NCBI RefSeq assembly: GCF_000422785.1
Contig: NZ_AUGS01000018.1
Span: 1 to 64,000 of the forward strand
DNA: 64,000 nucleotides
Direction: 5' to 3'
DNA from: Pseudovibrio exalbescens DSM 16456
GTDB lineage: Bacteria; Pseudomonadota; Alphaproteobacteria; Rhizobiales; Stappiaceae
Within the stretch, counting starts at the first letter, position 1; each line of letters starts with the position of its first letter. Of the stretch, positions 1,218 to 22,653 are shown one piece after another. Position numbers and translations under genes: made by a program. The notes beneath the pieces are model-generated. The model did no database searches, was not told the origin of the DNA, and saw nothing but the letters and a program-made list of their open reading frames with translations.

Positions 1218-2564
1218 ATGTCTGTAGAAAGACCCCGTATTGGTGTGGTCGCGCTGGGGCGCCCCACTTTTGATGTCCCATTTGCCGAAGAAATCCTGGC
1301 CAAGGCATGGTCGACCCTTGAAAGCATTGACGCCGAGTTGATTGGTCAACCAGAGCTGCTGTTTGATGCCGACGCTGTGCGCGCCGCGCTTCCCGCTTTG
1401 AAAGAACAGCAACTGGACATGCTGCTGCTGCTGCAGGTCACCTTTACAGACGCAACCATGACCGTGGAACTGGGCAAGCAGATTGATGCGCCGTTGGTCA
1501 TGTGGTCCTTCCCTGAAGCTCGCACAGGTGGCCGTCTGCGCCTGAACTCATTCTGTGGTGTCAATCTTGCAAGCCACGCGCTGAGCCGGAATGACCTGAG
1601 CATCGACTACGTGCATGCGGACGCCGACAGCCCTGCTGCCAAGGAAGAGCTGGAAGTCTATGCCCGCGCCGGTGCTATCGCAAATGACCTGCGCGGCACC
1701 AAGCTGAAACTGGTTGGTCAGCATCCAGACGGCTTTGACGCCTGCAATTTCAATGAGGAAGAACTCAAGTCCAAGTTTGGCGTTGAAGTGGATCGCATCC
1801 CTGTGATCGACTTCATCAACGAAGTCAAGGAACTGCCTGACGACGTCGCCGACGCCCCCTATGAGCGCCGCGCCAAGGATTTCCCGAATCTGGCTGAACT
1901 GGATCAGGATGCAACCCGCAAGACGCTCAAGGTTTATTCAAAGCTGCGCGCAGAAGCAGATGAAAATAACTACAAGGGCATCGCGGTTCGTTGTTGGCCG
2001 GATTTCTTCACCGAGTATGGTTGCGCGGCCTGTGGTGCGCTTGCTCTGCTGAACGAGGATCGGACGCCAGCAGGTTGCGAGGCTGACATGATGGGCGTGG
2101 TTACCTCCCTGACATTGCAGCATGCTGCGCAGGGAAGTGTGTTCAACACTGATCTGGTCGACGTCAACACAGAAGACGACACCGTTGTTTTCTGGCACTG
2201 TGGTCAGGCCCCCATCGATATGGCGGACACCGATCAGCCGATTCAGGGCACCATCCACTCGAACCGCAAACTGCCGTTGCTTTCCGAATTCGCTTTGAAG
2301 CCGGGCCGCATTACCATGGCACGCTTTAGCCAAGGTCACGGCAAGATGCGTCTGCTTTTGGCAGGTGGCGAGATGATCAAGGCACCTTTGGCGTTCTCCG
2401 GTACTGCTGGCACCGCAAAACTGGATGTTCCAGTAAAGCAGTTCCTCGACACCATGATCAACGAAGGTCTGGAACACCACACCGCTCTGACGTACGGCGA
2501 ACACCGTCCGGTTATGCGCGCTGTAGCCAAAAGGCTTGGTATTGAGGTCGTTGAACTGACCTAA
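1218..2564 (+). CDS. Sugar isomerase of the L-fucose/L-arabinose isomerase type, probable sulfoquinovose isomerase
   Basis: The 448-residue cytoplasmic protein starts at ATG 1218 behind GGAGG. It has the two-part architecture of L-fucose/L-arabinose isomerase-type enzymes. The C-terminal half has a cysteine-rich core (CWPDFFTEYGCAACGAL, about 256-272) followed by Glu and Asp (GCEADM) and a His (FWHCGQAP) that could form the metal site. It is the first gene of the block ending with the sulfoquinovosidase. E. coli uses YihS, an AGE-family isomerase, and no YihS homologue is present here. Isomerases of this other fold serve the sulfo-transaldolase and sulfo-EMP2 pathways (SqvD/SftI), so SQ to sulfofructose is the likely reaction. 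Family is fairly sure; substrate is inferred from context. Confidence 0.75.
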   Translation: MSVERPRIGVVALGRPTFDVPFAEEILAKAWSTLESIDAELIGQPELLFDADAVRAALPALKEQQLDMLLLLQVTFTDATMTVELGKQIDAPLVMWSFPEARTGGRLRLNSFCGVNLASHALSRNDLSIDYVHADADSPAAKEELEVYARAGAIANDLRGTKLKLVGQHPDGFDACNFNEEELKSKFGVEVDRIPVIDFINEVKELPDDVADAPYERRAKDFPNLAELDQDATRKTLKVYSKLRAEADENNYKGIAVRCWPDFFTEYGCAACGALALLNEDRTPAGCEADMMGVVTSLTLQHAAQGSVFNTDLVDVNTEDDTVVFWHCGQAPIDMADTDQPIQGTIHSNRKLPLLSEFALKPGRITMARFSQGHGKMRLLLAGGEMIKAPLAFSGTAGTAKLDVPVKQFLDTMINEGLEHHTALTYGEHRPVMRAVAKRLGIEVVELT

Positions 2565-2574
2565 TCCAGTGCGC

Positions 2575-2617
2575 GGTGGGAAGCGATATTAAATTTTGGC
2601 TCTGTCTGCTTCCCACC
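2575..2617 (+). other. Intercistronic hairpin after the isomerase gene
   Basis: GGTGGGAAGC (2575-2584) pairs perfectly with GCTTCCCACC (2608-2617) around a 23-base AT-rich loop. It is not followed by a T-tract, so it probably acts as an RNA-processing or stability element between the isomerase and dctQ rather than as a full terminator. Confidence 0.5.
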
Positions 2618-2654
2618 CCTTTGGCTTGCATTTCTAAAACAAGGAAATCGCATC

Positions 2655-3179
2655 ATGTTAGAAGCCATTGAAAAAGGGCTGAACAAGATCAACGAACCGC
2701 TCGGCAAGCTGGGGAGCTGGATCGGCGGCAGCCTGTTGGTCATCATGACTGTTATCGTTCTGCTGCAAGTGCTGTTTCGCTACATCCTGAACATGCCGTT
2801 GAGTTGGACCGATGAAACCTCGCGTTTCATGATGATCTACATGACATACCTGTGCCTGCCGCTCATCTACTTGCAGGACAAGAACATCGCCATGACGTTC
2901 TTGCTGGATGGTCTCAACGGCAAGCGCATCAAGCACTTGCTGATGGTTTTCATCCATGTTCTGGCCATTGCCGCGTTCGTTGTCTGGATCAAGTTCGGCT
3001 ACGACTTCTACCTCAGAGGCCAAAGCCAAGCAGACAGCCTGCCAATCAAGATGTACGTGATCTATGCGGCCCCTCCTTTGATGATGACCATAACGCTGTT
3101 GTCAGCCGTTCAGAAAATCATCAGCGAACTGCGCATGTTCACCCATTTCCACTCTCTTGCTGAAAAGCCTGCGGCTTGA
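2655..3179 (+). CDS. dctQ: TRAP transporter small membrane subunit (DctQ family)
   Basis: The 174-residue inner-membrane protein has four hydrophobic segments (about 20-42, 55-75, 94-116, 132-150). It carries the family pattern FRYILNMPLSWTDETSRFMM (about 40-59), typical of DctQ. It partners the large permease encoded 32 bases downstream and the binding protein at 4575. The gene lies between the isomerase and the sulfoquinovosidase in one direction with short gaps, so the complex probably imports sulfoquinovose or its glyceryl glycoside. Family is certain; substrate is inferred. Confidence 0.92.
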   Translation: MLEAIEKGLNKINEPLGKLGSWIGGSLLVIMTVIVLLQVLFRYILNMPLSWTDETSRFMMIYMTYLCLPLIYLQDKNIAMTFLLDGLNGKRIKHLLMVFIHVLAIAAFVVWIKFGYDFYLRGQSQADSLPIKMYVIYAAPPLMMTITLLSAVQKIISELRMFTHFHSLAEKPAA

Positions 3180-3211
3180 TTGGCAGCAGCGGACGATAAG
3201 GTAGACACATC

Positions 3212-4501
3212 ATGGTCTCTCCAATCTTTGCCCTCTACTTTCTGATCCTGCTGTTCGTCGGTGTACCAGTGCTGTTTGCGCTAGGTCTGGCTCCAGCAAT
3301 TGCCCTGTTCCAGGCAGATCAGATCCTGTTCATGAACATGCTGTACCAGCGCCTGTACGCTGGTCTGGACAACTTCCTGCTTCTGGCCTTGCCATTCTTC
3401 ATGTTGGCAGGTGAGTTCATGGTGAACGGCGGTATCACCAACCGCATCATCACCTTCTCTCAAACCATGGTGCAGCACATGCGCGGCGGTTTGGGACACG
3501 TGGTTATTCTGGCATCTACACTGTTCGGCGCGTTGACGGGCTCGGCCGTGGCGGCGACCTCCGCCATTGGCAACATGATGATCCCGGAAATGGAGCGCTA
3601 CAAGTACGACCGCACCTACGCGGCCGCATTGACAGCAGCTGCAACTGTGCTGGGCACCATCATTCCGCCCTCCGGCATCATGCTGATCTATGCCTTCGTC
3701 ATGAATACGTCCGTGGCAGCAATGTTCATGGCCGGCATCGTACCTGGGCTGATCCTGTGCGTGGCACTGATGCTGGTCAATCGCTGGCAAATCCAGAAAT
3801 ACCCGGACGTAGAGCAGTTTCCACGCGCTACGGCAGCAGAACGCGCCGCTGGTTTCAAAGTTGCGATCCTGCCATTGTTGACGCCAGTCATCATTTTGGG
3901 CGGCATCTATGGCGGTATCTTCACACCGACGGAAGCTGCGGCAGTAGCGGTGTTCTATGCCTTCATCCTTTCTGTATTCATCATGCAGATTTTGAAGATG
4001 AAGGACGTGTTCCCCATGTTCATCCGCATTGCCATCAACGCGGCCGCGATCTTGATCATTGTGGCAGCGGCCAGTGGCTTTGCTTCTGCGATCAGCTTGT
4101 CTGGTGTGGCCAAAGAGATCACCACCTTCTTCTACTCCATCACCGACAATCCGTACCTGCTGTTCTTCATCATGAACATCTTCCTCTTCATCGTGGGCAT
4201 GTTCCTCGATGCAGGTCCGGCAATTCTGATCTTTGCACCCATTCTGGCACCTATCATGACCAATCTCGGCATCGATCCGGTTCACTTCGGTGTGGTCATG
4301 GTGGCAAACCTGTCCATCGGCCTTGCAACACCCCCCATGGGACTGGTGCTGTTCGTTGCCTCTGGTGTGTCGGGCGTGCCGCTTCAGAAGATCTCCAAGG
4401 CAATTCTGCCCTTCCTGTTCGCAGAATTCATCGTGATCTTCTTGATTTCGTTCTTCCCAGTTCTTGTCATCGGTCTCCCTCAGATGCTGGGCATGATGTA
4501 A
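3212..4501 (+). CDS. dctM: TRAP transporter large permease (DctM family)
   Basis: The protein of 429 residues is the usual DctM length, with about a dozen membrane segments. Family signatures are visible: LLALPFFMLAGEFMVNGGIT near 50-70, GALTGSAVAATSAIG near 105-120, IIPPSGIMLIYA near 148-160, FTPTEAAAVAVFYA near 235-250 and LATPPMGLVLFV near 368-380. It forms the ion-coupled transport channel with DctQ and receives ligand from DctP. A long open frame on the opposite strand is its antisense shadow. Confidence 0.95.
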   Translation: MVSPIFALYFLILLFVGVPVLFALGLAPAIALFQADQILFMNMLYQRLYAGLDNFLLLALPFFMLAGEFMVNGGITNRIITFSQTMVQHMRGGLGHVVILASTLFGALTGSAVAATSAIGNMMIPEMERYKYDRTYAAALTAAATVLGTIIPPSGIMLIYAFVMNTSVAAMFMAGIVPGLILCVALMLVNRWQIQKYPDVEQFPRATAAERAAGFKVAILPLLTPVIILGGIYGGIFTPTEAAAVAVFYAFILSVFIMQILKMKDVFPMFIRIAINAAAILIIVAAASGFASAISLSGVAKEITTFFYSITDNPYLLFFIMNIFLFIVGMFLDAGPAILIFAPILAPIMTNLGIDPVHFGVVMVANLSIGLATPPMGLVLFVASGVSGVPLQKISKAILPFLFAEFIVIFLISFFPVLVIGLPQMLGMM

Positions 4502-4574
4502 GGCGGGATTTCTCGGAGGAAGCTGGTGTGCAGCAAACCATGCCAGCCCTTCCAACCATTACTTGGAGGTAAGT

Positions 4575-5627
4575 ATGAAACTCAAAGCACTTGGTCTTTC
4601 TCTTTTGACCTCGGTTTTTCTGACTGCGGGAGCACAGGCAGCAGATTACAAACTGACAGTGCCGCACGTCACGAACATCGACAGCTACAATCACCAGTCG
4701 CTGCTCGTGTTCAAGAACTTCGTTGAATCCCGTTCCAACGGCGCCATCGAAGTCGAAATCTATCCATCCGGTCAGCTCTGCTCAACGGCACGCGAATGTC
4801 TTGCTGGTGTACAGGCTGGCATGTTCGATTACTTCCAGACCACGATTCCGGAGCTAGCCAACTATTGGGCTCCAATGGGCGCATTCGATCTGCCTTACAT
4901 GCTGCGCGATGACCGTGTTGCAGAATGCGTATACGACAACGAAGACTTTCTGGCTGACATCCGCACAAACATTCTGGAAGAAACCCAGAACCTACGCACC
5001 ATGATGGTGTCCAACTCCGGAGGGTGGCGTAACTTTGCAACCACCGACAAGCAGATCAAGTCCCCTGAAGACGTTCAGGGTCTGAAGCTGCGTACAGTTC
5101 CGGCCCCAATCCAGCAGGAACTCGTGAAGGCACTCGGTGGTGCCCCAACGCCGATTTCCTGGCCAGAAGTTTACACCGCGCTTTCCACTGGCGTTGTTGA
5201 CGGAACCAAGAACGGCATCGTGGACATCACCACCATGAAGTTCGAGGAAAGCCTCAACTACATCGTTCTTGACGGTCACGCTTACATGGGCGGCGTCTGG
5301 GTGATGAACAACGAAAAGTTCAACGCATTCCCTGAAGAACTTCAGCGCGTTGTTATTGACGGTGTTCAGGCTCAGAACCAGTTCCTGCGCGCCTATCCGA
5401 AGTGGAAAGAGTTCGATGCCTACGAAGTCTTCCGCAAGGCAGGCGGCACCGTTTACACCCCGAATGCCGAAGAAAAGAAGGCATTCCGCGATGCAACCGC
5501 ACCCGTACGTGACTTCTTCGTAGAAAGCACTGGCGAAGAGGGCCAAGTATGGCTGGAACGCTTTGAAACAGAAATCCAGGCTTGCGAAGCTGCAATTGAA
5601 GCAGACTATGCAAAAGCCTCCAAGTAA
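4575..5627 (+). CDS. dctP: TRAP transporter solute-binding protein (DctP family), candidate SQ/SQ-glycerol binder
   Basis: The start is ATG 4575, with GGAGG at 4565-4569; a frame opening 12 bases earlier lacks a suitable ribosome-binding site. The 350-residue protein has a signal peptide ending near AQA-AD (residue 22), so it works in the periplasm. The DctP hallmark GLKLRTVPAP (169-178) includes Arg173, the position that pairs with a carboxylate in most TRAP binding proteins and might contact the sulfonate here. It is followed by ISWPEVYTALSTGVVDGTKN. It is flanked by dctM and the sulfoquinovosidase and followed by a hairpin at 5641. Known SQ importers are of the MFS and ABC types, so this would be a different solution. 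Confidence 0.9.
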   Translation: MKLKALGLSLLTSVFLTAGAQAADYKLTVPHVTNIDSYNHQSLLVFKNFVESRSNGAIEVEIYPSGQLCSTARECLAGVQAGMFDYFQTTIPELANYWAPMGAFDLPYMLRDDRVAECVYDNEDFLADIRTNILEETQNLRTMMVSNSGGWRNFATTDKQIKSPEDVQGLKLRTVPAPIQQELVKALGGAPTPISWPEVYTALSTGVVDGTKNGIVDITTMKFEESLNYIVLDGHAYMGGVWVMNNEKFNAFPEELQRVVIDGVQAQNQFLRAYPKWKEFDAYEVFRKAGGTVYTPNAEEKKAFRDATAPVRDFFVESTGEEGQVWLERFETEIQACEAAIEADYAKASK

Positions 5628-5640
5628 TATTTGACGAATG

Positions 5641-5665
5641 ACGGGGTGAGCTCGTCTCACCCCGT
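5641..5665 (+). terminator. Stem-loop after dctP
   Basis: ACGGGGTGAG and CTCACCCCGT form a perfect 10-bp stem around CTCGT, immediately after dctP and 96 bases before the next start. There is no T-tract. It may attenuate transcription and protect the 3' end of the binding-protein message, which usually has to be abundant. Confidence 0.6.
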
Positions 5666-5761
5666 CACAACTACACAAGACCAAACGCAGCGCAGCTCAC
5701 CCCTCGCAAGCGAAACCGATTTTTCGGCTACACAAGCTCGAACCCGTAACGGTACACAATC

Positions 5762-7783
5762 ATGAAACTGGAAAAACTCGAGACCGGCTTCGTGCTCACG
5801 CACAAGGGCCAGGTTATCCTCCGTCATAGCTTCGACAATCCGTGTCTGTTCCTTGGCGCAGGCTCTGCGAACTTTGACATGTATCGCGGTAACTTCGACA
5901 TTACCGACTACGTGATCGAGCGCCTGCCAATGCGCAACTTCGCTGTTCAGGAAGTTGACGACAAAATCCTGATCACCTTCAGTGCTGAAGGGCAGGAGAC
6001 CATTGTCTTTACCGCAGAAGAAACTGCTGAAGGTCGCCTTAAGATCGCGTTCACCAGCAAAAAGCCGGAATTGAACCGTTTCTGGCTGCGCATTGCCGCA
6101 ACGGCGACGGAAAAGGTCTATGGTTGCGGTGAACAGCTGACCTATTTCAACCTGCGTGGCCACAACTTCCCGCTATGGACTTCAGAGCCGGGCGTTGGCC
6201 GCAACAAGAACACCTACATCACCTGGCAGGCGGACGTTAAGGACCGCGCCGGTGGGGACTACTACAATACCAACTATCCGCAGCCGACCTACGTCTCCAG
6301 CGACAAGTACTTTGCGCACTTGCAAACAACGGCCTATGCGGATTTCGATTTCCGGCACGATGATTTCCACGAGCTGCAGGCTTGGGAGATTCCTGAATAC
6401 CTGTTGGTAGACAAGGAAGACAGCTTTGCCGACCTGGTGAAGAATATTTGTGGCGTCTTCGGCAATCAGCCAGAACTGCCGGATTGGGTACTGGACGGTG
6501 TGATCCTCGGCATTCAGGGTGGTACCGATATCACCATCGAGAAGATCAATCGCGCCAAGGAAGCTGGTGTAAAAGTTGCTGGTGCGTGGTGTCAGGACTG
6601 GCAGGGCATCAAGATGACCTCCTTCGGCAAGCGTTTGCAGTGGGACTGGCAGTGGAACAAGGAGCTTTACCCGGACCTCGACACCAAGATCCACGAGCTG
6701 AAGAAGGAAGGCCTCCGCTTTCTGGGGTACATCAACCCATACGTTCTGGAAGACTTCCCGCTTTACAACGAAGCTCAGGAAAAGGGTTTCCTCGCCACCA
6801 AGGAAGATGGCAGCAAGTACGTTGTCGACTTTGGCGAATTCTATTGCGGTGTTGTCGATTTCACCAATCCTGAAGCCTTCGAGTGGTACAAGGGCGTCAT
6901 CAAGAAGAACATGATCGAGTTCGGTCTGGACGGCTGGATGGCTGACTTTGGCGAATATCTGCCAACGGACTGCTATCTGTCCAACGGCAAATCCGCCGAA
7001 ATCGAGCACAACAACTGGCCAACCCGTTGGGCACAGTGTAACCACGAAGCCATTGAGGAAGCGGGCAAAACCGCCGACATCCTGTTCTTCATGCGAGCTG
7101 GATACACCGGCATTCAGGGCTACTGCCACACCCTTTGGGGCGGCGACCAATGCGTGAACTGGAACATTGACGATGGTATGCCATCTGTCATCAACGCTGC
7201 ATTGTCCTCCGGCTTGATGGGCAATGGTATCCACCACTCTGACATTGGCGGGTACACCACCCTGCATGGCATGAAGCGGGACCGTGAGCTGTTCATGCGG
7301 TGGGCTGAGTTTGCTGCCTTCACTCCAATCATGCGTTCACATGAAGGCAACCGTCCAGCCGACAACCATCAGTTTGACAGCGACGATGAGACCCTTGCGC
7401 ATCTGGCCGCAATGACCCGCGTCTTCACGCATCTGAAGCCGTACATCAAGGCTCTGTCCAAGGAAAACGCAGAAACAGGCATGCCGGCACAACGCCCGCT
7501 GTTCATGCACTTCGAAGATGACGCTGAAGCCTACGAGGTACTCTACGAATACCTGTTCGGTCGTGATCTGTTGGTGGCACCGGTTTACGAGCAGGGTGCA
7601 ACCACGCGTAAGCTGTACCTTCCAGCGGATGAATGGGTGCACGTATGGAGCGGCGAAACCTATACAGGCGGTTGGGTCGAGGTTAACGCGCCAATCGGTC
7701 AGCCACCTGTGTTCTATCGCAAGAACAGTGCGGATGCAGCGCTTCTGTCAAAGATTGCGGAAGCTGCTGACTACAAGGCCTAA
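5762..7783 (+). CDS. yihQ: Sulfoquinovosidase, glycoside hydrolase family 31
   Basis: The 673-residue cytoplasmic GH31 retaining alpha-glycosidase releases SQ from SQ-glycerol and other alpha-sulfoquinovosides. It follows E. coli YihQ closely with a constant offset of ten residues. The nucleophile is Asp395 (GWMADFGEY) and the acid/base is Asp462 (GGDQ). The sulfonate-recognising positions of YihQ (Gln288, Arg301, Trp304, Tyr508) are all kept here as Gln278, Arg291, Trp294 and Tyr498. Stretches such as MTSFGKR, GYINPYV and HHSDIGGYTT are also shared. It is the last gene of the block and is followed by a strong terminator at 7813. This is the anchor for reading the cluster as sulfoglycolysis. 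Confidence 0.96.
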   Translation: MKLEKLETGFVLTHKGQVILRHSFDNPCLFLGAGSANFDMYRGNFDITDYVIERLPMRNFAVQEVDDKILITFSAEGQETIVFTAEETAEGRLKIAFTSKKPELNRFWLRIAATATEKVYGCGEQLTYFNLRGHNFPLWTSEPGVGRNKNTYITWQADVKDRAGGDYYNTNYPQPTYVSSDKYFAHLQTTAYADFDFRHDDFHELQAWEIPEYLLVDKEDSFADLVKNICGVFGNQPELPDWVLDGVILGIQGGTDITIEKINRAKEAGVKVAGAWCQDWQGIKMTSFGKRLQWDWQWNKELYPDLDTKIHELKKEGLRFLGYINPYVLEDFPLYNEAQEKGFLATKEDGSKYVVDFGEFYCGVVDFTNPEAFEWYKGVIKKNMIEFGLDGWMADFGEYLPTDCYLSNGKSAEIEHNNWPTRWAQCNHEAIEEAGKTADILFFMRAGYTGIQGYCHTLWGGDQCVNWNIDDGMPSVINAALSSGLMGNGIHHSDIGGYTTLHGMKRDRELFMRWAEFAAFTPIMRSHEGNRPADNHQFDSDDETLAHLAAMTRVFTHLKPYIKALSKENAETGMPAQRPLFMHFEDDAEAYEVLYEYLFGRDLLVAPVYEQGATTRKLYLPADEWVHVWSGETYTGGWVEVNAPIGQPPVFYRKNSADAALLSKIAEAADYKA

Positions 7784-7885: not shown

Positions 7886-9091
7886 TTAGCGCACCAGCTT
7901 TCCCACGGCCTTTAAGAGGAACTCATCCTTGTAATGTCCGGCGGCAAACGACAGGCCGACAGGAATGCCTCCCACATCAAGCAGTGGGGCAGAGATTTCG
8001 GGGAATCGGCCAACACCAGAGAACGCCGTTATCGTCATTGTGCGATTATAAAAATCCTGAACCGCCTCAAGAGTGGTCAATGACCCTTTCAAGGGCGCAA
8101 CAACCGGCGTGCTTGGGAAACAGACAACAGTGCCATCCGGCAGCCCTGCGTTGATGTCTTCAAACAACTTTTCGCAAAGCGCCAAACACTTCATCTGCTT
8201 GACACGATCAAAGTTTTTTACGTTGCCATAGGCCATGGAGAACACAAACCCGAGTTCCGGCTTGTGGGCTTCGATCCAGTTCCCAACAACGCTTTCAAAT
8301 TCAATCGTCTGCAGATTGCGCAAGGCGGCCTCATTGCACATGGACAACGGCGCATCATAGCCGACAAGTTCTGCAAAACTGACCGCCTCAAGGGACACAC
8401 CAGAAGCGCCGGAAATGCGCTCCAATGCATTCAACGCCGCATCCGCGACAGGTTTGTCGGCAACATTAAAAGCATCTTGCAGATAAAGAATACGAGATAC
8501 GTCCGGGACAGCTCTTCCTGTGCTTTTCAAAAGAACTTTCGCCGGCCTTTCCAACGCAACCAGTGAATTTGCCAGTACCCCAACCGTGCTCACGCTCGGC
8601 ATAAAGGGCAACACACCCGCCTCGGATATCCGGTGCAACGATGGCCGAAGTCCCCATATGCCGCACAGACTTGCCGGCACCCGCACTGATCCGCCCGAAT
8701 CCGTTCCCAATGAAAAATCGACCAGGCCATTTGCGACAGAGGCCGCGGAACCACTGGAAGACCCACCTGGAATGCGGTCCGGTGCCCTCGCATTTCTTGG
8801 GGTCCCGTAAAAGTGACTTTCACCGTCCAGGCTGTAGGTAAACTCATCTGCAACCACCTTGCCTCGACACGTGGCGCCTTCTGCAAGCAACTGGTCAACA
8901 CATACTGCATTGTAAAGCGGCGCGGGATGCGCGTCGCGCCAGGACGGACTACCAAAAGACGTGGGCCGACCTGCCAAGTCAATGTTGTCCTTGACCGAAA
9001 AACTCAAACCATCAAGCGCACCCGTGGCATATGGGCCGATTTCAAACTGTTCAACAAACGCGCCAGATTCATCCGATGTGGTGCCGGTCAT
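7886..9091 (-). CDS. Amidase signature family hydrolase
   Basis: The 401-residue cytoplasmic amidase starts at 9091 behind GGAGAG. The Ser-cisSer-Lys triad is visible: Lys34 in SVKDNID, the glycine/serine loop GGSSSGSA (109-116) with the cis-Ser at about 111, and the nucleophile Ser135 in GTDSGGSVR. It is shorter than GatA (about 480 residues) and not beside gatB/gatC, so it is more likely a small-amide hydrolase, for example of the AtzF/indoleacetamide type, than part of the tRNA amidotransferase. It probably shares a transcript with the TetR gene upstream. Substrate is unknown. Confidence 0.85.
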   Translation of the reverse strand: MTGTTSDESGAFVEQFEIGPYATGALDGLSFSVKDNIDLAGRPTSFGSPSWRDAHPAPLYNAVCVDQLLAEGATCRGKVVADEFTYSLDGESHFYGTPRNARAPDRIPGGSSSGSAASVANGLVDFSLGTDSGGSVRVPASLCGIWGLRPSLHRISEAGVLPFMPSVSTVGVLANSLVALERPAKVLLKSTGRAVPDVSRILYLQDAFNVADKPVADAALNALERISGASGVSLEAVSFAELVGYDAPLSMCNEAALRNLQTIEFESVVGNWIEAHKPELGFVFSMAYGNVKNFDRVKQMKCLALCEKLFEDINAGLPDGTVVCFPSTPVVAPLKGSLTTLEAVQDFYNRTMTITAFSGVGRFPEISAPLLDVGGIPVGLSFAAGHYKDEFLLKAVGKLVR

Positions 9092-14432: not shown

Positions 14433-15653
14433 TCAAATTCCCTTCAGCGTACTTTGCAAGCTGCCTGTCGGGGTCACGATATCATTGATGCGCCATCCTT
14501 TGTCGGTACGGATCAAATCGTAACGCAGGGCGTACCGACTATCGAAGTTGCGGAAAAACACCTCAACCCGTGCCGTATCGCCCTCCACCCGTGCCGGCGC
14601 GATCTTCAGATCCGCCAGCTTGATTTCGTTTCCCGGCACGATTGGATTGAAGAAGAGCCCACGCTCACCGTAGAGCAGCTCTCCTCGCTGCTCGGCATAG
14701 GCAATCAAATCCAGAACACGGCGTGAAAACCAACTGTCCCTCAATGGCGGTTCGAACACATCCACCATCGGCTCGTCTGCATCATACAATGCTTGCAACA
14801 TGCCTGCAGGGTCCAACTCCTGCTCATCTTGAGGCAGAGCGTCTTCTGCGACTACCAAGCGGTCTACCAAGGCCTGATCGATGGCCTCCTGAGCAGGAAG
14901 GTCTTCAAGCTCTCTGTATTTGGCAATAGCCTCACGGGTCATGGGCCCCAACTTGCCGTCGATGGGCCCGAGATCATACCCCAATTTCGTGAGAATGCGC
15001 TGAACCGTGAAAATTTGCAGGATCTCTTCGGTAAATACCGAGTCCGGCGGTGCGGATGGCAAACAAAGTGCCATGTCCTCGTAGGTATTGAGTAGCGGCG
15101 CATGCTTGAATCGACTGTCTGGCCAGCTTACCCGCAACGCAGCAAGGCGCGCGTTCGCACCGCACCCACTCTCACACGCCGCGCCGGTCAACGACCGCAA
15201 AACCGCACCTTCTTCATCCAGCTCGAGTGAAAATCGGCAGCCGAGATCCTCATAGACCCACTGTCCCTCGTCGTTTTGCACCAGATCGCCAATGATGGAA
15301 CAATTACGTCCATCTTCAAACCAGACGTCATAGCCAAAACGGCGTTCGCCAGCGATGTCTTCGCCCAACAAAAACGTGACATCGGTCTCCGTTTTTGGCA
15401 GGCAGTTCTCTTCGTCCCCATCGCGGCACAGTTCGCTGTCTTGTTCAATCACATCAACGGCAAACGTGTCCGCCGTACAAAAGATACCGCCCCGGCTCAC
15501 GCCATCTGTTTCCTGCGGATCGGCTGCGGCTTCGGATGAACGTTCTTGATCTTGCGCCAGCGCTGCGCTCACCATCATTGCTGCCAGTCCGACTGATACC
15601 ACACCGCCGAACAACCACCGTGCACCTGCCATACCGAACCTCGCTCGTGCCAC
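14433..15653 (-). CDS. Periplasmic peptidoglycan-binding-domain protein
   Basis: The 406-residue protein has a signal peptide (hydrophobic core about 14-32, ending ALAQ) and eight or more Cys in the mature N-terminal half, probably disulfide bonded. A PG_binding_1 repeat spans about 213-255 (VQRILTKLGYDLGPIDGKLG). The C-terminal region (about 290-400) resembles DUF3828-type domains, with RYDLIRTDKGWRINDIVTP. The first half (YDVWFEDGRNCSI, LGCRFSLELDEEG) looks like a ligand or inhibitor barrel. It is probably an envelope protein; no specific function is recognised. Confidence 0.6.
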   Translation of the reverse strand: MARARFGMAGARWLFGGVVSVGLAAMMVSAALAQDQERSSEAAADPQETDGVSRGGIFCTADTFAVDVIEQDSELCRDGDEENCLPKTETDVTFLLGEDIAGERRFGYDVWFEDGRNCSIIGDLVQNDEGQWVYEDLGCRFSLELDEEGAVLRSLTGAACESGCGANARLAALRVSWPDSRFKHAPLLNTYEDMALCLPSAPPDSVFTEEILQIFTVQRILTKLGYDLGPIDGKLGPMTREAIAKYRELEDLPAQEAIDQALVDRLVVAEDALPQDEQELDPAGMLQALYDADEPMVDVFEPPLRDSWFSRRVLDLIAYAEQRGELLYGERGLFFNPIVPGNEIKLADLKIAPARVEGDTARVEVFFRNFDSRYALRYDLIRTDKGWRINDIVTPTGSLQSTLKGI

Positions 15654-15885: not shown

Positions 15886-16635
15886 TCAGAAGTTCTTGTA
15901 GGCTTCTGCAATACCGAGGAAGTCAGCAGCCTTCAGGCTTGCTCCACCGACAAGCGCGCCATTCACGTTTGGCAGAGCCAGCAGTTCAGAAGCGTTGGTC
16001 GGCTTGACGGACCCACCATAAAGCAGGCGGATCTTTTCGCCATCTTCGCCAAAACGCTCGACCAGGCTCTTGCGCAGTGCCGCATGAACTTCGGCAACGT
16101 CATCAGCCGTAGGTGTCTTGCCTGTCCCAATTGCCCAGATCGGCTCATAAGCCACAACCGTGTTAGCGCTGGTGGTTGCATCCGGCAGGCTCTTGGTAAT
16201 CTGCTCCGTTACAACGGCAATGGTTTCGCCAGCTTCACGCTGTTCAAGGCTCTCACCAATGCAAACAATCGCCACAAGCCCGGCACGCCATGCCGCTTCA
16301 GCCTTGGCAGCCACATCAGCGTCCGTTTCACCGTATCCTTCACGGCGTTCCGAGTGCCCGACAATCACGTACTTGCCACCAACATTGGCAACCATCTCGG
16401 CGGAGATGTCACCCGTGTGTGCACCAGATGCCGCCGCATGGCAGTTCTGAGCACCCACCGGCAGGTTTTCAACTTCGGCAAACTGCGCCAACAAAACAGC
16501 AGGAGGACAAACCAGCATGTCGATCTTTTCGGCAAGTGCTGCGTCATATCCGGCAGCAATCTTGGCGAATTCTTCATAGGACTCCTTGGTCCCGTTCATT
16601 TTCCAGTTACCAGCTACAAGTGGGCGAACAGTCAT
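15886..16635 (-). CDS. tpiA: Triosephosphate isomerase
   Basis: The 249-residue protein starts at 16635; the open frame extends upstream but the conserved N-terminus [15 protein letters not shown] fixes the start. Catalytic residues are Lys12, His94 (VGHSERRE) and Glu164 ([12 protein letters not shown]). It interconverts DHAP and glyceraldehyde 3-phosphate. It sits downstream of the aldolase in the SQ operon, so it probably feeds DHAP from sulfofructose-phosphate cleavage into lower glycolysis. A separate housekeeping copy elsewhere is likely if this replicon is accessory. Confidence 0.95.
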
Positions 16636-16874: not shown

Positions 16875-17741
16875 TTACTTGTAGTCAGCAGCCTTGCCTT
16901 GCGACCCAAAGATGCGGATCTTTTCCTGAACCTTTGCCATCATGACTTCTTCACCACGGCCGAGGGAAGTCGCCAGAACAAACTCCTCAGGGTTTTCTTT
17001 CCAGATTTCCTGAACGCCATAGGTAAAGGCCTGACGCAGTTCCGTATCCACGTTCACCTTGGCAACACCAAGGCCGACGGCTTTCATGACCTGCTCATCC
17101 GGCACACCGGAGCCACCATGCAGCACCAATGGCTTCTTCACGATGTCGCGAATTTCCTGAATACGCTCGAAAGCAAGCTTCGGCTCGGACTTGTAAACAC
17201 CATGGGCGGTGCCCACGGAAATCGCCAGATAGTCAACCGTTGTGCGAGTTGCAAATTCCTGCGCTTCTTCGACAGAGGTGATCATGGCGTCGGCTTCATC
17301 AACGGTAATGTCGTCTTCCGTACCACCGATCTTGCCAATCTCACCTTCACAGCCAACGCCCAGAGCATGAGCCACATCAGCAACCGCTTTTGTGATGCGT
17401 ACGTTTTCTTCGAACTCATAACCGGAACCATCGAACATCAAGGACTGGAAGCCCGCCCGGGCTGCTTCCATGGTCTGTTCGAACTTGCGGCTGTGGTCGA
17501 GGTGGATACAAACCGGCACCGTGATGTCACGCATGAAGGTATCGACCATGGCCTTCATTTCATAAAGACCGAGGGTGTTGATCACTTTCTGACCAATCTG
17601 GATCATGATGGGTGCCTGCTCTTGCTCAGCAGCCCGCAAGATCCCCCGAATGGTTTCAGCGTTGTGTGCACTGAACGCGCCGATGGCGTAACCACCTTCC
17701 CAAGCGCGCTTGATCATTTCTTTACCGGATACGTAAGCCAT
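16875..17741 (-). CDS. Class II aldolase, probable sulfofructose-1-phosphate aldolase
   Basis: The 288-residue zinc-dependent aldolase is of the GatY/KbaY/Fba type. Asp82 and His83 (CIHLDHSR), the acidic pair in EGEIGKIGG (132-140), His180 (GTAHGVYK), His208 (LVLHGGSG) and NVDTELR (230-236) are all present. The ordinary reaction splits ketose bisphosphates to DHAP plus an aldehyde. Beside a YihV-type kinase and a YihU-type reductase, cleavage of 6-deoxy-6-sulfofructose 1-phosphate to DHAP and sulfolactaldehyde is the likely job. E. coli uses the class I aldolase YihT; class II SqiA-type aldolases are known from sulfo-EMP2 clusters. Gluconeogenic or tagatose use is the alternative. Confidence 0.85.
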   Translation of the reverse strand: MAYVSGKEMIKRAWEGGYAIGAFSAHNAETIRGILRAAEQEQAPIMIQIGQKVINTLGLYEMKAMVDTFMRDITVPVCIHLDHSRKFEQTMEAARAGFQSLMFDGSGYEFEENVRITKAVADVAHALGVGCEGEIGKIGGTEDDITVDEADAMITSVEEAQEFATRTTVDYLAISVGTAHGVYKSEPKLAFERIQEIRDIVKKPLVLHGGSGVPDEQVMKAVGLGVAKVNVDTELRQAFTYGVQEIWKENPEEFVLATSLGRGEEVMMAKVQEKIRIFGSQGKAADYK

Positions 17742-17887
17742 TCTTAATTCCTCGACTTGAGCTCTCTGTCAAAAGGTCGTTTCGCAGTGGTGTGAGCGTC
17801 TGGCACATCCCCGTGAGGCCCACTCCACGTCAATTCCCGTGTTTGTTGCTCTTACCTTACACCATTACAATCAGATACGAAAGCTAA

Positions 17888-17898
17888 TGTGACCATTT
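17888..17898 (+). promoter_or_regulatory. Motif TGTGACCATTT upstream of the aldolase gene
   Basis: An exact copy of the 11-base motif at 1092-1102 lies 147 bases before the aldolase start, in the 200-base gap between the exporter gene and the aldolase gene. The surrounding AT-rich stretch suggests an internal promoter for aldolase and triosephosphate isomerase. Confidence 0.4.
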
Positions 17899-17941
17899 TT
17901 GTTTATTTAAGGACATAAATAGAGCGTATATGTCCGTAATT

Positions 17942-18685
17942 TTACCATATATGGAGGTTTTTAAGCACAAGCATTGTGCCAATGATCAAAAGCAGACCGT
18001 GAATGATCCCGTGATAATTGATCTTGTAGTGATGCAGCAGGTGATAGGCGAACATTCCAACACTCATGCCAACGATGAAGGCGGGCATCGCGTACAGAAT
18101 GGTTTCCATCACATAGGCATCAAGCAAGCCTTTGGTCCAGAAGCCAGCGATCGCACCAACCATCTGAAGCATAAAGAAGAATACCAGCGTTGACTTTGTC
18201 TGGTGTGCTGTCCAGGGCTGCATGGACGTGTAGGCGATCACCGGCGGCCCCGGCTCTCCCACACTTGCACCGAGCGCACCGGAGAAGAATCCGGTTCCGA
18301 GCGTGATGGGCGGCGATGTTTTCTTGAAAAGAGGCGCTTTGGAGAACAGTGAATACAGGCTGGAAGCGATCAAAACCACGCCCATTGTGATCAGAATTGC
18401 TTCGCCAGGCAAACGCTTGAGCAGGTCTGCACCCAAAAACGAACCGGGGAGCGACCCCACAAACAGGATCAGGCCCGTCCGCCACTGGACATGTTCGCGC
18501 ATTTTCCAAACCAGCGGGAAGGTGACCAGCCAGCCAAACACCCCGGCAATCGGCACAGCAGCTTTAACATCAATAGCGAGCGACAGCAGCGGAACACTGA
18601 CCAGGGCAAGACCAAAGCCTGTCAGGCCCTGGGTAAAGCTGCCCAGAGCGATAATCGCCGAGACGATAATTATTTCGATATACAT
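17942..18685 (-). CDS. TauE/SafE family exporter, candidate for the C3-sulfonate product
   Basis: The 247-residue protein has about eight membrane segments and the duplicated family pattern GFGLALVSVPLLSLAIDVKA (about 23-42) and GALGASVGEPGPPVIAYT near the middle. TauE/SafE proteins export sulfite, sulfoacetate and related anions. The gene lies inside the SQ operon between the epimerase and the aldolase, so export of dihydroxypropanesulfonate (or sulfolactate/sulfite) is the natural inference. No sulfite-releasing enzyme is seen in the window, which favours the C3 product. Confidence 0.82.
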   Translation of the reverse strand: MYIEIIIVSAIIALGSFTQGLTGFGLALVSVPLLSLAIDVKAAVPIAGVFGWLVTFPLVWKMREHVQWRTGLILFVGSLPGSFLGADLLKRLPGEAILITMGVVLIASSLYSLFSKAPLFKKTSPPITLGTGFFSGALGASVGEPGPPVIAYTSMQPWTAHQTKSTLVFFFMLQMVGAIAGFWTKGLLDAYVMETILYAMPAFIVGMSVGMFAYHLLHHYKINYHGIIHGLLLIIGTMLVLKNLHIW

Positions 18686-18747
18686 GATGGGAACTCGACT
18701 GAGTGGCCCCTTTCAAAAGGGACCACTTGTTCAGTTATGCCAGCAAC

Positions 18748-19803
18748 TTAGCGAGTACCAAACCGATGGATGGTTTTGTGCTCGTAAACGTCACCGGGGT
18801 TCAAACGGGCAGAGGGGAAGTGCGCCTTGTTCGGGCTGTCAGGATAACCTTGTGTTTCCAGACACAGACCGCCAAACGCCTCGTACTTGCAGCCGTTACG
18901 ACCGATCCACGTTTTGTTGGAGAGTTTAAACGCGTTGTAGAACTGAATGGCTGGCTGGGTGGTCAGCACCGTCATGAACCGACCGGACGTCGGATCATAA
19001 AGATCAGCCGCCAGCTTATAATCGCCTTCCTGTTCTTGTCCGTTCAAAATGTAGTTGAAGTCGAACGCCGCGCCCTCAACCTTGTCCATGTTTGTCCCGA
19101 TCCGGGTGGAGTTGCGGAAGTCCATGCCGGATCCCGCAACACTCAGGATTTCTCCGGTCGGGATCATGTTCTCGGCAACCGGCGTGTAAAAGTCTGCGAA
19201 CAATTTCAGCTCATGGTCCGCAACGCTGCCGCTGTCATGACCCGCCAGATTGTAGTAGCTATGGTTCACCAGATTGATGACAGTCGGCTTGTCGGTATGG
19301 GCCCGGAAATTGTAGTGCAGCTGGTTTTTCTCATCCAACCCAATGGTATGCGTGACATCCAGCGTCCCCGGATATCCTGACTCCCCATCCACCGAGATGC
19401 GATGAAGATGGACCAAAATCTCTTCGTCGGTTTCTTCCAGATCATAGGCCCAGACATACTTGTCAAAGCCTTTCGAGCCGCCATGAAGATGCTGCACGGT
19501 GGGCGGCTCGTTGGTTTCCAACTGGTAGACGTTGGCGTCAATCTTGAACCGTCCGTCCTGAATGCGGTTGGCAAAACGGCCTGCAATTGCGCCAAAGAAA
19601 GGATGTCCGGCCAGATACTTTTCAAGGGATTCATAACCCAGCACCACGTCCTCGGCCTTGCCGTCCCGGTCCGGTACAACGATCGAGGTAACGATACAGC
19701 CGTAGTTGGTCAAGCTGACCTGCATTCCCTTTGAGTTCTTCAGCGTGATCAGATCCACCCGCTGCCCACCGATCTCACCATAGAGTTCGATTGTCTTTTC
19801 CAT
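18748..19803 (-). CDS. galM: Aldose 1-epimerase, probable sulfoquinovose mutarotase
   Basis: The 351-residue GalM-family mutarotase shows NYGCIVTSIVVPDRDGK near the N-terminus, RFANRIQDGRF, QHLHGGSKGFDK (His acid), VNHSYYNLAGH (His) and a Glu near GGLCLETQGYPD. It interconverts alpha and beta anomers. The enzyme has the full-length GalM form rather than the shorter YihR form. It lies 21 bases downstream of the yihU-type gene in the same direction, so it probably equilibrates the anomers released by the sulfoquinovosidase. Action on ordinary aldoses is the alternative. Confidence 0.88.
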   Translation of the reverse strand: MEKTIELYGEIGGQRVDLITLKNSKGMQVSLTNYGCIVTSIVVPDRDGKAEDVVLGYESLEKYLAGHPFFGAIAGRFANRIQDGRFKIDANVYQLETNEPPTVQHLHGGSKGFDKYVWAYDLEETDEEILVHLHRISVDGESGYPGTLDVTHTIGLDEKNQLHYNFRAHTDKPTVINLVNHSYYNLAGHDSGSVADHELKLFADFYTPVAENMIPTGEILSVAGSGMDFRNSTRIGTNMDKVEGAAFDFNYILNGQEQEGDYKLAADLYDPTSGRFMTVLTTQPAIQFYNAFKLSNKTWIGRNGCKYEAFGGLCLETQGYPDSPNKAHFPSARLNPGDVYEHKTIHRFGTR

Positions 19804-19824
19804 GTTCGTATCTCCCTGCCCGGC

Positions 19825-20718
19825 TTACTTGGCTTTGGTTTCAAGGCCAGACAGTTCGCGCAGTTGCTCCAGAACTGCGGTCCAGTCCTGACGCCCCCGG
19901 CCAGCGGTGCGGCTGATATTGTAAATTTCACGGGAAGCTGCGCCCATTGGTATTGGCACTCCCACCTGGTTGGCCAGATCAAGCGCAATGCCCAGATCCT
20001 TGTGAGCCAGATCAACCATGAAGGCCGGATCCAGATTGCCAGCAAGCACCTTGTTCGGCCACGTCGTGGTGAAGTGTCCCTTGCCTGCCGGCGTGCCGCC
20101 CATGACGGACATGGCGGTGTCAAAGTCGAGACCGATTTTCTCCGCCAGCGCAATCGCTTCAGCTGACAAAACGTTCAAGGCGATGCTCATGTAATTGTTA
20201 ATGATCTTGACACGAATGCCTTTACCCGGTCCGCCGGCGTCAACAGTATCCGACCCCATCAGATCAAACAGCGGCTGCGCCTTGGCGATCTGTTCCTTGG
20301 TCCCGCCTGCGAGGATCAACAGCGTGCCGGCAATCGCGTGATCGGACGTGCGGCCCACCGGCGCTTCCATCATCTGATAACCGTCCTTGGCCAGATCAGC
20401 GATCAGCGCATCCGTTTCAAGAGGATGGATCGTTGACATGTCGATCACCAATGCGTCTTTCGACAACCGCGACACAACGCCGTCTTCACCCAGAAGAACA
20501 TTGCGGACCAACGCCCCATTCGGCAGCATGGTGATCACAAATTCTGCGCCTTCTGCTGTTTCGGCTGGCGACCCACACGCCTTGGCGCCTTGCCCCTGCA
20601 AAGCAGCAACCGCGTCTTTATTAATGTCGTAAACGTTGAGGGTGTGGCCTCCCTTGATCAAATTTGCTGCCATTGCGGCGCCCATCTGACCCAGACCAAC
20701 AAAACCAACAGTCGCCAT
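19825..20718 (-). CDS. yihU: 3-sulfolactaldehyde reductase (YihU type)
   Basis: The 297-residue beta-hydroxyacid dehydrogenase follows E. coli YihU almost residue for residue. The Rossmann motif [16 protein letters not shown] (5-20) is followed by DMSTIHPL, the substrate loop APVGRTS with Arg123, catalytic Lys171, and Asn174/Ser178 in KIINNYMS, and then GKGHFTT. The product of the YihU reaction is 2,3-dihydroxypropane-1-sulfonate, with NADH oxidised. It is the first gene of the minus-strand SQ operon. No sulfolactaldehyde dehydrogenase is seen, so DHPS is the expected end product. Confidence 0.95.
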
Positions 20719-20732
20719 ACCAAGTCCTCACT

Positions 20733-20761
20733 TGTGATCATTTATGTTCGTTATTGAACAT
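20733..20761. promoter_or_regulatory. Candidate regulator sites in the divergent yihU/yihV promoter region
   Basis: TGTGATCATTT (20733-20743) is a one-base variant of the motif at 1092 and 17888. Directly next to it ATGTTC (20744-20749) and GAACAT (20756-20761) form an inverted repeat around six bases. The 190-base region 20719-20908 separates the yihU-type operon from the kinase-csqR pair and is AT-rich. Confidence 0.45.
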
Positions 20762-20908
20762 TAGCCCCTAATAAGGGCAAAATACAACACATTTTGATTG
20801 TTTTTTGCCGGTTTTGGTGGTATTTTTTCATTAAATGAGTGTTTGTCCGTTCGTATTTACACGCAGATTTGGACCAAAAACACCTGCAATGCTAGAAAAG
20901 GGTAGCCA

Positions 20909-21802
20909 ATGACCATCGCTTGCGTAGGGATCACAGTGCTCGATCGTGTATTCCGAGTCTCTGAATTGCCAACCACTGGCGGCAAGTTTGTTGCCAAGAA
21001 GTACTTTGAAATTGGCGGCGGTCCGGCTGCAACAGCAGCAGTTGCCATTAGCAAGCTGGGACATCCGGTGGAGTTTATTGGCCGAGTTGGCGCGGACGAT
21101 GTGGCGCAAGCCATGCAAAGAGAATTCACCCAATACGGTGTGGGCCAGGCACATATTCGCACGATAGACGGTGCTACATCGTCATTTTCGGCCATTCTTG
21201 TGGATGACGCGGGCGAGCGCATGATCATCAACTATCAGGACGATCAACTGAGTCGTGATCCTGAGTGGCTCAAACAGATCAATTTCGATCAGTTCCAATC
21301 AGTGCTGTGTGACGTGCGCTGGATCGCCGGTGCCAAGCATGCTCTGGAACAAGCCAAGTCCCTTGGAATTCCTAGTGTTTTGGATGCCGACATCACCCCG
21401 GAAGACATTGGCGAACTGGTCGCATTGGCCGACCACGTCGCGTTTTCCGAACCTGGATTGGCGAAATTCTCACAGGTTGATGACCCCTTAGAGGGATTGC
21501 GCATTGCTCAAACGAAAACCGATGGTACAGTTTATGTAACAGTTGGCTCAAAAGGGTGCTACTGGCTGGAAGGGGATGAGCTCTGTCACCAACCGGGCTT
21601 CAAGGTTGATGTGGTTGACACAACCGGAGCAGGCGACGTTTTCCACGGCGCCTTTGCATTGGCAGTAGCGGACCAAATGTCGGCGCGAGACGCCGTCACG
21701 TTCTCCAGCGCAGTCGCCGCGTTGAAATGCACCAAGATGGGCGGTCGCGAAGGTGTTCCGGACCGGAGCACGGCAGAAGCGTTCATCAAGGCCAACGCCT
21801 AG
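20909..21802 (+). CDS. yihV: 6-deoxy-6-sulfofructose kinase (YihV type)
   Basis: The 297-residue PfkB-family kinase is close to E. coli YihV throughout. The N-terminal GGGPAATAAVA (37-47) and the C-terminal DTTGAGD (237-243, catalytic Asp243) frame the sugar- and ATP-binding sites. Lys26, Asn108 and Arg137 line up with YihV Lys27, Asn109 and Arg138, the residues I recall as sulfonate-binding. It phosphorylates sulfofructose at C1. It is divergent from yihU and followed after 77 bases by its regulator gene. Confidence 0.93.
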   Translation: MTIACVGITVLDRVFRVSELPTTGGKFVAKKYFEIGGGPAATAAVAISKLGHPVEFIGRVGADDVAQAMQREFTQYGVGQAHIRTIDGATSSFSAILVDDAGERMIINYQDDQLSRDPEWLKQINFDQFQSVLCDVRWIAGAKHALEQAKSLGIPSVLDADITPEDIGELVALADHVAFSEPGLAKFSQVDDPLEGLRIAQTKTDGTVYVTVGSKGCYWLEGDELCHQPGFKVDVVDTTGAGDVFHGAFALAVADQMSARDAVTFSSAVAALKCTKMGGREGVPDRSTAEAFIKANA

Positions 21803-21879
21803 AAAAACCGGGGACCACAAACGCCGTTGAACAAGCACGGGCATTTGAGGCACCCTGTCGAAAGTTGGAACAGAAACAG

Positions 21880-22653
21880 ATGCCGGATGCCGTGATTGTT
21901 GGAAACCTACGCCACGAAAAGCTGATCAAGGAAGTCAACGACAAGGGCTATGTGAGCGTCGAGGAGCTGGCTGAGCTGCTTGACGTTTCCGCCCAAACCA
22001 TTCGTCGTGACATCAAGAAACTCAGTGAACAGAAGCTGGTGGTTCGACACCATGGCGGCGCAGGGCGCAGCTCCAGTGTCGTGAACCTAGATTACGCTGT
22101 TCGTCAGGTTTCGGAAACGGAAGAAAAGGAAGCCATCGGCGCCGCGATTGCTGAGCACATTCCCGACAATTCGTCCGTTTTCATTTCAATTGGCACCACA
22201 ACGGAAATCATTGCCAAGCACTTGCTCAAAAAGCAGGGCCTGAGGGTGATTACCAACAGCTTGCGCGTGGCCAACGTTCTGTATCAGAAAAACGACTTCA
22301 ACGTGATGGTGCCAGGAGGCAAGCTGCGCAGCACGAACGGCGGTATTGTGGGCTCAACCGCACTGGAATTCGTCAACCATTTCCGGGTGGACTATCTGAT
22401 TACCAGTTGCGGCTCCATCGATACGGACGGGACCCTGCTGGACTATGATTTCAACGAGGTTGTGGTTGTACAAAGCATGATGAAAACGGCGCGCAACGTG
22501 TTCATTGCCGCAGATTCCACGAAATTCTCCACCACGGCAGCGGTGGAAGTGGGTCACATCAAGAACGCTACCGCCTTGTTCACCGATGCCACCCCTCCGG
22601 CGGACATCAACATGCAGCTTACGCAGCATGGGGTTAAGCTTGTGATCGTCTAG
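21880..22653 (+). CDS. csqR: DeoR-family repressor of SQ catabolism (CsqR/YihW type)
   Basis: The start is taken at ATG 21880, giving 257 residues, close to the 261 of E. coli CsqR. The frame is open to 21727, but that extension overlaps the kinase and has no DeoR-like sequence. The N-terminal winged helix has VSVEELAELLDVSAQTIRRD. The body contains KLSEQKLVVRHHGGAGR, SIGTTTEIIAKHLL and RVITNSLRVANVLY, all shared with CsqR. DeoR repressors usually respond to a phosphorylated sugar or pathway intermediate. Candidate sites are the shared motifs at 1092, 17888 and 20733. Confidence 0.93.
   Translation: MPDAVIVGNLRHEKLIKEVNDKGYVSVEELAELLDVSAQTIRRDIKKLSEQKLVVRHHGGAGRSSSVVNLDYAVRQVSETEEKEAIGAAIAEHIPDNSSVFISIGTTTEIIAKHLLKKQGLRVITNSLRVANVLYQKNDFNVMVPGGKLRSTNGGIVGSTALEFVNHFRVDYLITSCGSIDTDGTLLDYDFNEVVVVQSMMKTARNVFIAADSTKFSTTAAVEVGHIKNATALFTDATPPADINMQLTQHGVKLVIV

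Follow-up and report, generated by a model that had tools for sequence, protein, structure and literature searches.

A 64,000-nucleotide stretch of the genome of the marine bacterium Pseudovibrio exalbescens DSM 16456 (contig NZ_AUGS01000018.1, positions 1 to 64,000; hereafter the window) carries two gene blocks (1218–7783 and 16875–22653) that very probably work together as a single system for breaking down sulfoquinovose (SQ), a sulfur sugar of plants and algae, and SQ-glycerol, its glycoside with glycerol. Its enzyme complement is an ordinary hybrid sulfo-Embden-Meyerhof-Parnas (sulfo-EMP) set, already reported, and the part that was not found described is the importer, a tripartite ATP-independent periplasmic (TRAP) transporter. 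Evidence in this organism was drawn from gene content, homology, the isomerase fold, the recurrence of the set in other genomes and a candidate shared motif, and the genome examined comprised 4.16 Mb on 36 contigs.

In the proposed route, SQ or SQ-glycerol would be brought in by the TRAP transporter DctQMP, and the sulfoquinovosidase YihQ, which has no visible signal peptide, would release SQ in the cytoplasm. A GalM-type epimerase may interconvert the SQ anomers, an SqvD-type metal-dependent isomerase would convert SQ to sulfofructose and YihV would phosphorylate the latter. The class II aldolase SqiA would split phosphorylated sulfofructose into dihydroxyacetone phosphate (DHAP) and sulfolactaldehyde, YihU would turn sulfolactaldehyde into 2,3-dihydroxypropane-1-sulfonate (DHPS), and a TauE-family permease may carry DHPS out. 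DHAP would reach central metabolism via the neighbouring triosephosphate isomerase (TIM), glycerol could enter via GldA and DhaKL, and a CsqR-type DeoR repressor is predicted to govern both blocks. The coordinates of all features are given in Table 1.

Homologues of YihQ, YihV, YihU and CsqR had been recognised in an original prediction made from the sequence alone, and were borne out by family matches, by reading frames at the expected places and by their identity to the E. coli proteins (54.6%, 54.5%, 64.6% and 53%, respectively). Positions checked against the E. coli enzymes were identical at 8/8 in YihQ, 13/13 in YihU and 7/8 in YihV, with K in place of R31; the functional roles of these positions are presumed.

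The isomerase was assigned to the L-fucose/L-arabinose type, as had been predicted. Its fold family was settled by a fold search on a predicted model (mean predicted local distance difference test score, pLDDT, 86.4), with template modelling (TM) scores of 0.84 to E. coli L-arabinose isomerase and 0.79 to L-fucose isomerase. Against solved chains, the sequence alone gave no match with phmmer, and a profile gave weak matches to arabinose isomerases. Four candidate metal ligands (E288, D312, H347 and H421) were invariant across 16 homologues. The protein is 58–64% identical to SqvD of Serratia and Yersinia. Two results weigh against its assignment as an SQ isomerase. It reached 303.6 bits (E 2e-90) with the NCBIfam model for SftI (NF048012), below the cut-off of 700, as did the Yersinia (280.3 bits) and Cohaesibacter (281.7 bits) proteins, and the Alkalicoccus protein passed at 702.5; the proteobacterial SqvD branch is also only 28–31% identical to the Bacillota branch. 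For the proteobacterial branch we infer SQ isomerase activity.

The aldolase, likewise confirmed as class II, is close to the solved chains 8q57 and 8q58, labelled kbaY and ketose-bisphosphate aldolase in the PDB, which we take to be the SqiA of Sharma et al. 2023. The 8q57 stretch is identical at 286 of 287 residues to the Yersinia aldovae locus (L041). Two other class II aldolase matches in the genome scored 55.8 and 45.7 bits, against 627.3 for SqiA. YihS and YihT, which the isomerase and aldolase had been predicted to replace, had no counterpart among the Pseudovibrio and Cohaesibacter SQ loci by the protein panel described below, and the sole PF07221 protein elsewhere in the genome is 24% identical to E. 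coli YihS over half its length.

The E. coli sulfo-EMP pathway is defined by the isomerase YihS and the class I aldolase YihT, neither of which was detected at the window locus, and sulfo-EMP2 by SqvD, SqiK and SqiA, in place of whose SqiK the window has the PfkB-type kinase YihV. A hybrid sulfo-EMP/EMP2 pathway joins a sulfo-EMP kinase and reductase to at least one sulfo-EMP2 enzyme, and the window does so with YihV and YihU beside an SqvD-type isomerase and SqiA. The route had been called sulfo-EMP2-like, which holds for the isomerase and aldolase; it is not the best name, because most of the set (CsqR, YihV, YihU and YihQ) is of the sulfo-EMP kind, nearest to Vibrio. The suggestion that the enzyme mosaic is under-described had to be dropped, as hybrids are already described in passages of four sources: SqvD for YihS and SqiA for YihT in a Yersiniaceae bacterium (a review, PMC9594981), hybrid sulfo-EMP1/2 across Proteobacteria and Actinobacteria (PMC12890257), csqR-linked mosaics in Alphaproteobacteria among others (PMC10991401), and an SqiA-for-YihT hybrid demonstrated by growth and proteomics in Vibrio mediterranei AbY-1905 (PMC13372026).

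SqiA loci were found with an aldolase alignment (the best 80 of 82 relatives) and classed using a protein panel from Pseudovibrio, E. coli and Alkalicoccus, gene presence being scored within the stretches fetched. A genome search for the same gene combination, a check named in the original prediction, returned SqvD, YihV, TRAP and YihU together in 4 of the 80 loci (Pseudovibrio and Cohaesibacter). YihS, YihV, TRAP and YihU were combined in 18 (Vibrio, Photobacterium, Reinekea and Alginatibacterium), and SqvD, YihV, a major facilitator superfamily (MFS) carrier and YihU in nine (Serratia, Yersinia and Chimaeribacter). Another 46 were of the Bacillota kind (42 with SqvD, SqiK and SlaB, two with SqvD and SqiK, one with SqvD, SqiK and MFS, and one with SqiK alone). 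Three had neither isomerase nor importer in the stretch fetched (P. exalbescens L034, Budvicia L037 and Leminorella L046); the remaining half of the L034 cluster lies in P. exalbescens L020. Since the same set recurs across classes, its composition goes beyond chance. The loci are a clean case of exchangeable enzymes, in which one pathway frame accepts YihS or SqvD, and MFS or TRAP. Within the genus, SqvD or SqiA was present in four of the 16 genomes, counting that of the window. Among 385 sampled genomes of the class, relatives of SqvD (E up to 1e-60) turned up in seven, the window genome being one of them, and by the panel SqiA was absent from the fetched contexts of the other six.

The two blocks lie 8 kb apart in the window, convergent and inverted, so that they are not one operon, and genes of other kinds, apparently unrelated to the pathway, fill the space between them (7886–15653). 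This layout would suit two separate systems brought together by chance, a block for sugar uptake and hydrolysis and a block for sulfolactaldehyde, a reading we consider highly improbable. Both blocks stand in one colinear row in uncultured Pseudovibrio (L021/L036) and P. denitrificans, lie side by side in convergent orientation in Cohaesibacter L039, and form one row with YihS in Vibrio; moreover, the substrate of YihV is the product of SqvD, and the blocks share a candidate motif. The convergent blocks are about 4 kb apart in Cohaesibacter L043, and in P. exalbescens L020 the block order is the same with different intervening genes (urea-type ABC genes and a glycosidase, by reading translations). 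In P. denitrificans JCM 12308 (L022/L023, L035) the sqvD, galM, yihQ and gldA frames are broken, by sequencing error or decay.

Gene trees were quick ones, with Shimodaira-Hasegawa-like approximate likelihood ratio test (SH-aLRT) support only. The YihQ tree places the window and P. exalbescens sequences with those of Cohaesibacter (99, starred) and the L021 sequence separately, which suggests that two cluster versions were transferred into the genus. These alphaproteobacteria join the Vibrio type in the YihQ and GalM trees (99 and 100, starred), and CsqR, YihV, YihU, GalM and YihQ are nearer by identity to the Vibrio type than to Serratia/Yersinia or E. coli, with overlapping ranges for CsqR (56–63% for the Vibrio type against 49–57%). 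A closer relation of SqiA to Serratia than to Vibrio, as identities had indicated, was rejected, the tree leaving the three proteobacterial groups unresolved.

The importer had been read as a TRAP system, which was upheld by DctP, DctQ and DctM all scoring above the Pfam cut-off. A close DctM gene is carried by 22 of the 80 SqiA loci (18 with YihS, 4 with SqvD). In comparison with eight Vibrio-type SQ loci, DctM is 74–79% and DctP 59–72% identical, and the other DctM proteins seen beside the examined loci are only 35–37% identical to that of the window. From this association we infer import of SQ or SQ-glycerol by DctQMP.

Alternatively, SQ is degraded by these enzymes but taken up through a carrier encoded elsewhere in the genome, and the TRAP system imports a different substrate (DHPS, some other sulfonate or a sugar acid). 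TRAP systems for the small sulfonates taurine and sulfolactate are indeed known (in a passage of PMC10507020), and in a profile search of solved chains the second-best relative of DctP was the isethionate-binding DctP 8t9t (E 3.7e-45). Two further points count against SQ import by DctQMP: the DctP model (pLDDT 50.4) was too low in confidence for pocket analysis, and the genome is rich in TRAP systems (22 DctM proteins above the Pfam cut-off in 4.16 Mb), so that finding one next to catabolic genes is not unusual and proximity alone means little. One PF13347 MFS protein is also encoded elsewhere in the genome; its region, however, showed no match when compared with a piece of E. coli YihP (YihO was not compared). 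We nevertheless regard this alternative as unlikely, because the TRAP genes accompany yihQ across two classes at the DctM identities given above, and Serratia and Yersinia have two YihP-like MFS genes exactly at the place of TRAP. In V. mediterranei isolate 50 (L058), csqR, yihV, yihU, galM, yihS, sqiA, dctQ, dctM, dctP and yihQ are ten consecutive genes with gaps of at most 270 bases, and no other transporter gene is found in this row.

According to passages of PMC13372026, ten consecutive locus tags (00105–00150) of V. mediterranei AbY-1905 were more than 20-fold up on SQ, loss of the isomerase (00125, the fifth tag) abolished SQ degradation and DHPS was formed stoichiometrically. Because the number of genes and the place of the isomerase agree with L058, the SQ-induced ten appear to be the same genes, TRAP included; the word 'transporter' is nowhere in the text of PMC13372026, figures apart. 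No TRAP importer for SQ was found in the literature searched, and the figures of Liu et al. 2021 and Sharma et al. 2023 may draw one. Searches for sulfoquinovose with Pseudovibrio and for sulfoglycolysis with TRAP transporter found nothing in the same literature, and 'TRAP' in the sulfoquinovose passages of PMC12421959 and PMC11659671 refers to instrument traps. A 2022 paper terms SQ uptake poorly characterized and names ATP-binding cassette (ABC) systems and MFS carriers in the part consulted (PMC8873060).

A broader proposal, to which we give even chances, is that TRAP transporters join the MFS (YihO-type) and ABC (SmoF-type) systems as a third class of importer for sulfosugars. One TRAP lineage would supply SQ to the clusters of the Vibrio type and of Pseudovibrio/Cohaesibacter; another, identical to it at about half of the positions, would feed a different pathway for SQ or a sulfosugar in other Alphaproteobacteria (YihV-like kinase, LacD/YihT-like class I aldolase, SqvD-like isomerase and aldehyde dehydrogenase). 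TRAP transporters are generally sodium-coupled. If the proposal is true, a sodium-driven importer would suit marine bacteria, the substrates of TRAP systems would be widened to sulfonated sugars, and marine genomes could be surveyed for SQ use by means of a marker gene.

A second cluster type was observed in other Stappiaceae and other Alphaproteobacteria (L024–L030 and L124–L126). It holds a YihV-like kinase (38–44% to the window), a LacD/YihT-like class I aldolase and an SqvD-like isomerase (42–46%), mostly with a TRAP system of the same kind (DctM 51–52%, DctP 48–50%), and some clusters add a DeoR gene, GalM and an aldehyde dehydrogenase. YihQ and YihU were not detected by the panel, and no TRAP genes were seen in the stretches fetched for L026 and L029. 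This cluster type is perhaps a second sulfosugar route. In L122 and L123, SqvD-like genes (57% and 45%) stand beside a LacD-like aldolase, a YihV-like kinase and a distant GH31 (27–30% to YihQ).

These second-type clusters suggest a broader use of SqvD-like isomerases, and the window set might accordingly act on another C6-modified hexose, such as sulfofucose, instead of SQ. A sulfofucose route is known, but it is of the Entner-Doudoroff type with an ABC importer (as stated in part of PMC12421959). Very little weight can be given to a substrate other than SQ, given that yihQ keeps all checked sulfoquinovosidase positions, that yihV and yihU are close to the SQ enzymes and that the near-identical set of V. 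mediterranei serves SQ (passages of PMC13372026).

A candidate CsqR-type operator was located about 190 bp before sqvD. The motif used was trained on 16 gammaproteobacterial yihU-yihV spacers. Within the 64-kb window it scored highest at 1009, with 16.1 bits against 10.3 for the runner-up; its best match in P. exalbescens L020 likewise lay before sqvD (17.5, next 11.4). After column shuffling (n=1000), an equal score within 358–1217 was reached by 3 motifs, and the window's top match fell there for 38. In Cohaesibacter L043 the two best matches were in the yihU-yihV spacer. For an 18-wide motif derived earlier from 20 spacers, the window's own spacer being left out for the scoring, the sqvD site came out on top (17.7), ahead of a match within tauE (14.0), and matches in the window's yihU-yihV spacer took ranks 3, 4, 6 and 11. 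The word TGTCTNTTTTTGATC, picked after the site was seen, has one exact match in the genome, at the sqvD site; with one mismatch it has 3 genome matches, against 2 for the reversed control, and with up to two mismatches 2 matches in the window, where 0.45 were expected and 5 of 100 shuffles gave at least as many. Other results speak against an operator here: the motif gave no top-6 match in the window's own yihU-yihV spacer and no top match before sqvD in L021, Cohaesibacter L039 or L043, and a 22-wide motif placed the sqvD site only 17th. Two further matches were recorded, namely the second-best width-18 match (17981–17998), within the end of tauE and about 240 bases before sqiA, and a one-mismatch copy of the word (G000:C22:25396-25410), 83 bases past the matched part of another DctM gene, which may be due to chance.

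Several accompanying genes, unmentioned in the original prediction, bear on the fate of the products: the TauE-family permease, the GalM-type mutarotase, the TIM beside sqiA and the start of gldA; the approximately 8 kb of other genes had also gone unmentioned. TauE-family genes were found in 4/4 SqvD+TRAP, 7/18 YihS+TRAP and 0/9 MFS loci, as an exporter would be. Members of this family have been proposed as sulfolactate or sulfopropionate exporters (passages of PMC8873060 and PMC11489063), and by homology the window permease perhaps exports DHPS. The mutarotase is of the GalM type, not the YihR type (PRK15172 only 21.6 bits), and occurs in 4/4 SqvD+TRAP and 17/18 YihS+TRAP loci. For DHPS mineralisation, one PF00815 protein, the family to which we take HpsN to belong, and no Xsc above the cut-off were found in the genome, other routes not being sought; this is in line with DHPS as end product. 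The TIM is the only one in the genome and probably a housekeeping enzyme. A TIM dedicated to the pathway was considered and rejected on this ground, and because in L021 and Cohaesibacter sqiA has no TIM gene next to it.

The genome's only DhaK lies with DhaL at the edge of another contig, and in P. denitrificans yihQ is followed by dhaK, dhaL, a dhaM-like gene and pieces of gldA (names by reading). Among the 18 YihS+TRAP loci, gldA is present in three and dhaK in three; dhaK is present in one of the four SqvD+TRAP loci. Such neighbours are suggestive of SQ-glycerol use, though not as a general trait, and the window gldA possibly serves the use of glycerol released from SQ-glycerol. For DctP the ATG at 4575 was used as start, and the open reading frame listing also offers an upstream TTG at 4563. 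Elsewhere in the window, the Rfam model 5_ureB_sRNA matched at 33127–33416 on the minus strand (148.2 bits; gathering threshold 40); the match possibly reflects conservation of a ureB coding region on the opposite strand and not a small RNA.

Table 1. Features of the proposed SQ catabolic system and its neighbours in the window.
Feature	Coordinates	Strand	Basis or remark
gldA (glycerol dehydrogenase), start	1–357	-	truncated at contig edge; NCBIfam GldA models E 2e-46 and 4.6e-43 over residues 1–119
Candidate CsqR-type operator upstream of sqvD	1010–1024		gammaproteobacterial-trained motif and word
sqvD-type SQ isomerase (putative)	1218–2564	+	Pfam Fucose_iso_C; NCBIfam SQ isomerase SftI; arabinose/fucose isomerase fold
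TRAP small permease DctQ	2655–3179	+	Pfam DctQ E 5.5e-26
TRAP large permease DctM	3212–4501	+	Pfam DctM E 1e-108
TRAP solute-binding protein DctP, proposed SQ/SQ-glycerol binder	4575–5627	+	Pfam DctP E 4.8e-61
Sulfoquinovosidase yihQ (GH31)	5762–7783	+	PRK10426 1001 bits, cut-off 553
TIM	15886–16635	-	family match; neighbour of sqiA
Class II sulfofructose-1-phosphate aldolase sqiA	16875–17741	-	74% identical to 8q57, 70% to 8q58
TauE/SafE-family permease, candidate DHPS exporter	17942–18685	-	Pfam TauE E 1.3e-26
GalM-type aldose 1-epimerase, candidate SQ mutarotase	18748–19803	-	family match
Sulfolactaldehyde reductase yihU	19825–20718	-	NCBIfam 'sulfolactaldehyde 3-reductase' 476 bits, cut-off 348; best solved match 6sm7, E 7e-126
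Sulfofructose kinase yihV (PfkB)	20909–21802	+	best solved match sulfofructose kinase 7ag6, E 1.3e-101
DeoR-family regulator csqR	21880–22653	+	Pfam DeoRC and HTH_DeoR; 53% identical to E. coli CsqR; start ATG

Four known systems were compared with the window cluster. The E. coli sulfo-EMP pathway (yih cassette, L114) shares YihQ, YihV, YihU, CsqR and their divergent arrangement, whereas its YihS, YihT, YihR and YihO/YihP are replaced. The sulfo-EMP2 of Alkalicoccus (Bacillus) urumqiensis (L090; passages of PMC9594981) has the same intermediates, SqiA at 64% and YihQ at 62% identity and an isomerase of the SqvD fold family, but this SqvD is only 29% identical, and the system differs in its PfkA-type kinase SqiK, SqvB, the sulfolactaldehyde dehydrogenase SlaB and nearby ABC importer genes. 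The Yersiniaceae hybrids (passages of PMC9594981 and the Serratia, Yersinia and Chimaeribacter loci) resemble the window in combining SqvD and SqiA with YihV, YihU, YihQ and CsqR, and differ in having two YihP-like MFS carriers instead of TRAP and a TauE-family gene in none of nine loci. The V. mediterranei cluster has CsqR, YihV, YihU, a GalM-type mutarotase, SqiA, YihQ and the product DHPS in common with the window, and in L058 the same TRAP system as well. Its isomerase is YihS where the window has SqvD, and the window cluster is split, inverted and equipped with a TauE-family gene, a gene that 7 of the 18 YihS+TRAP loci also have.

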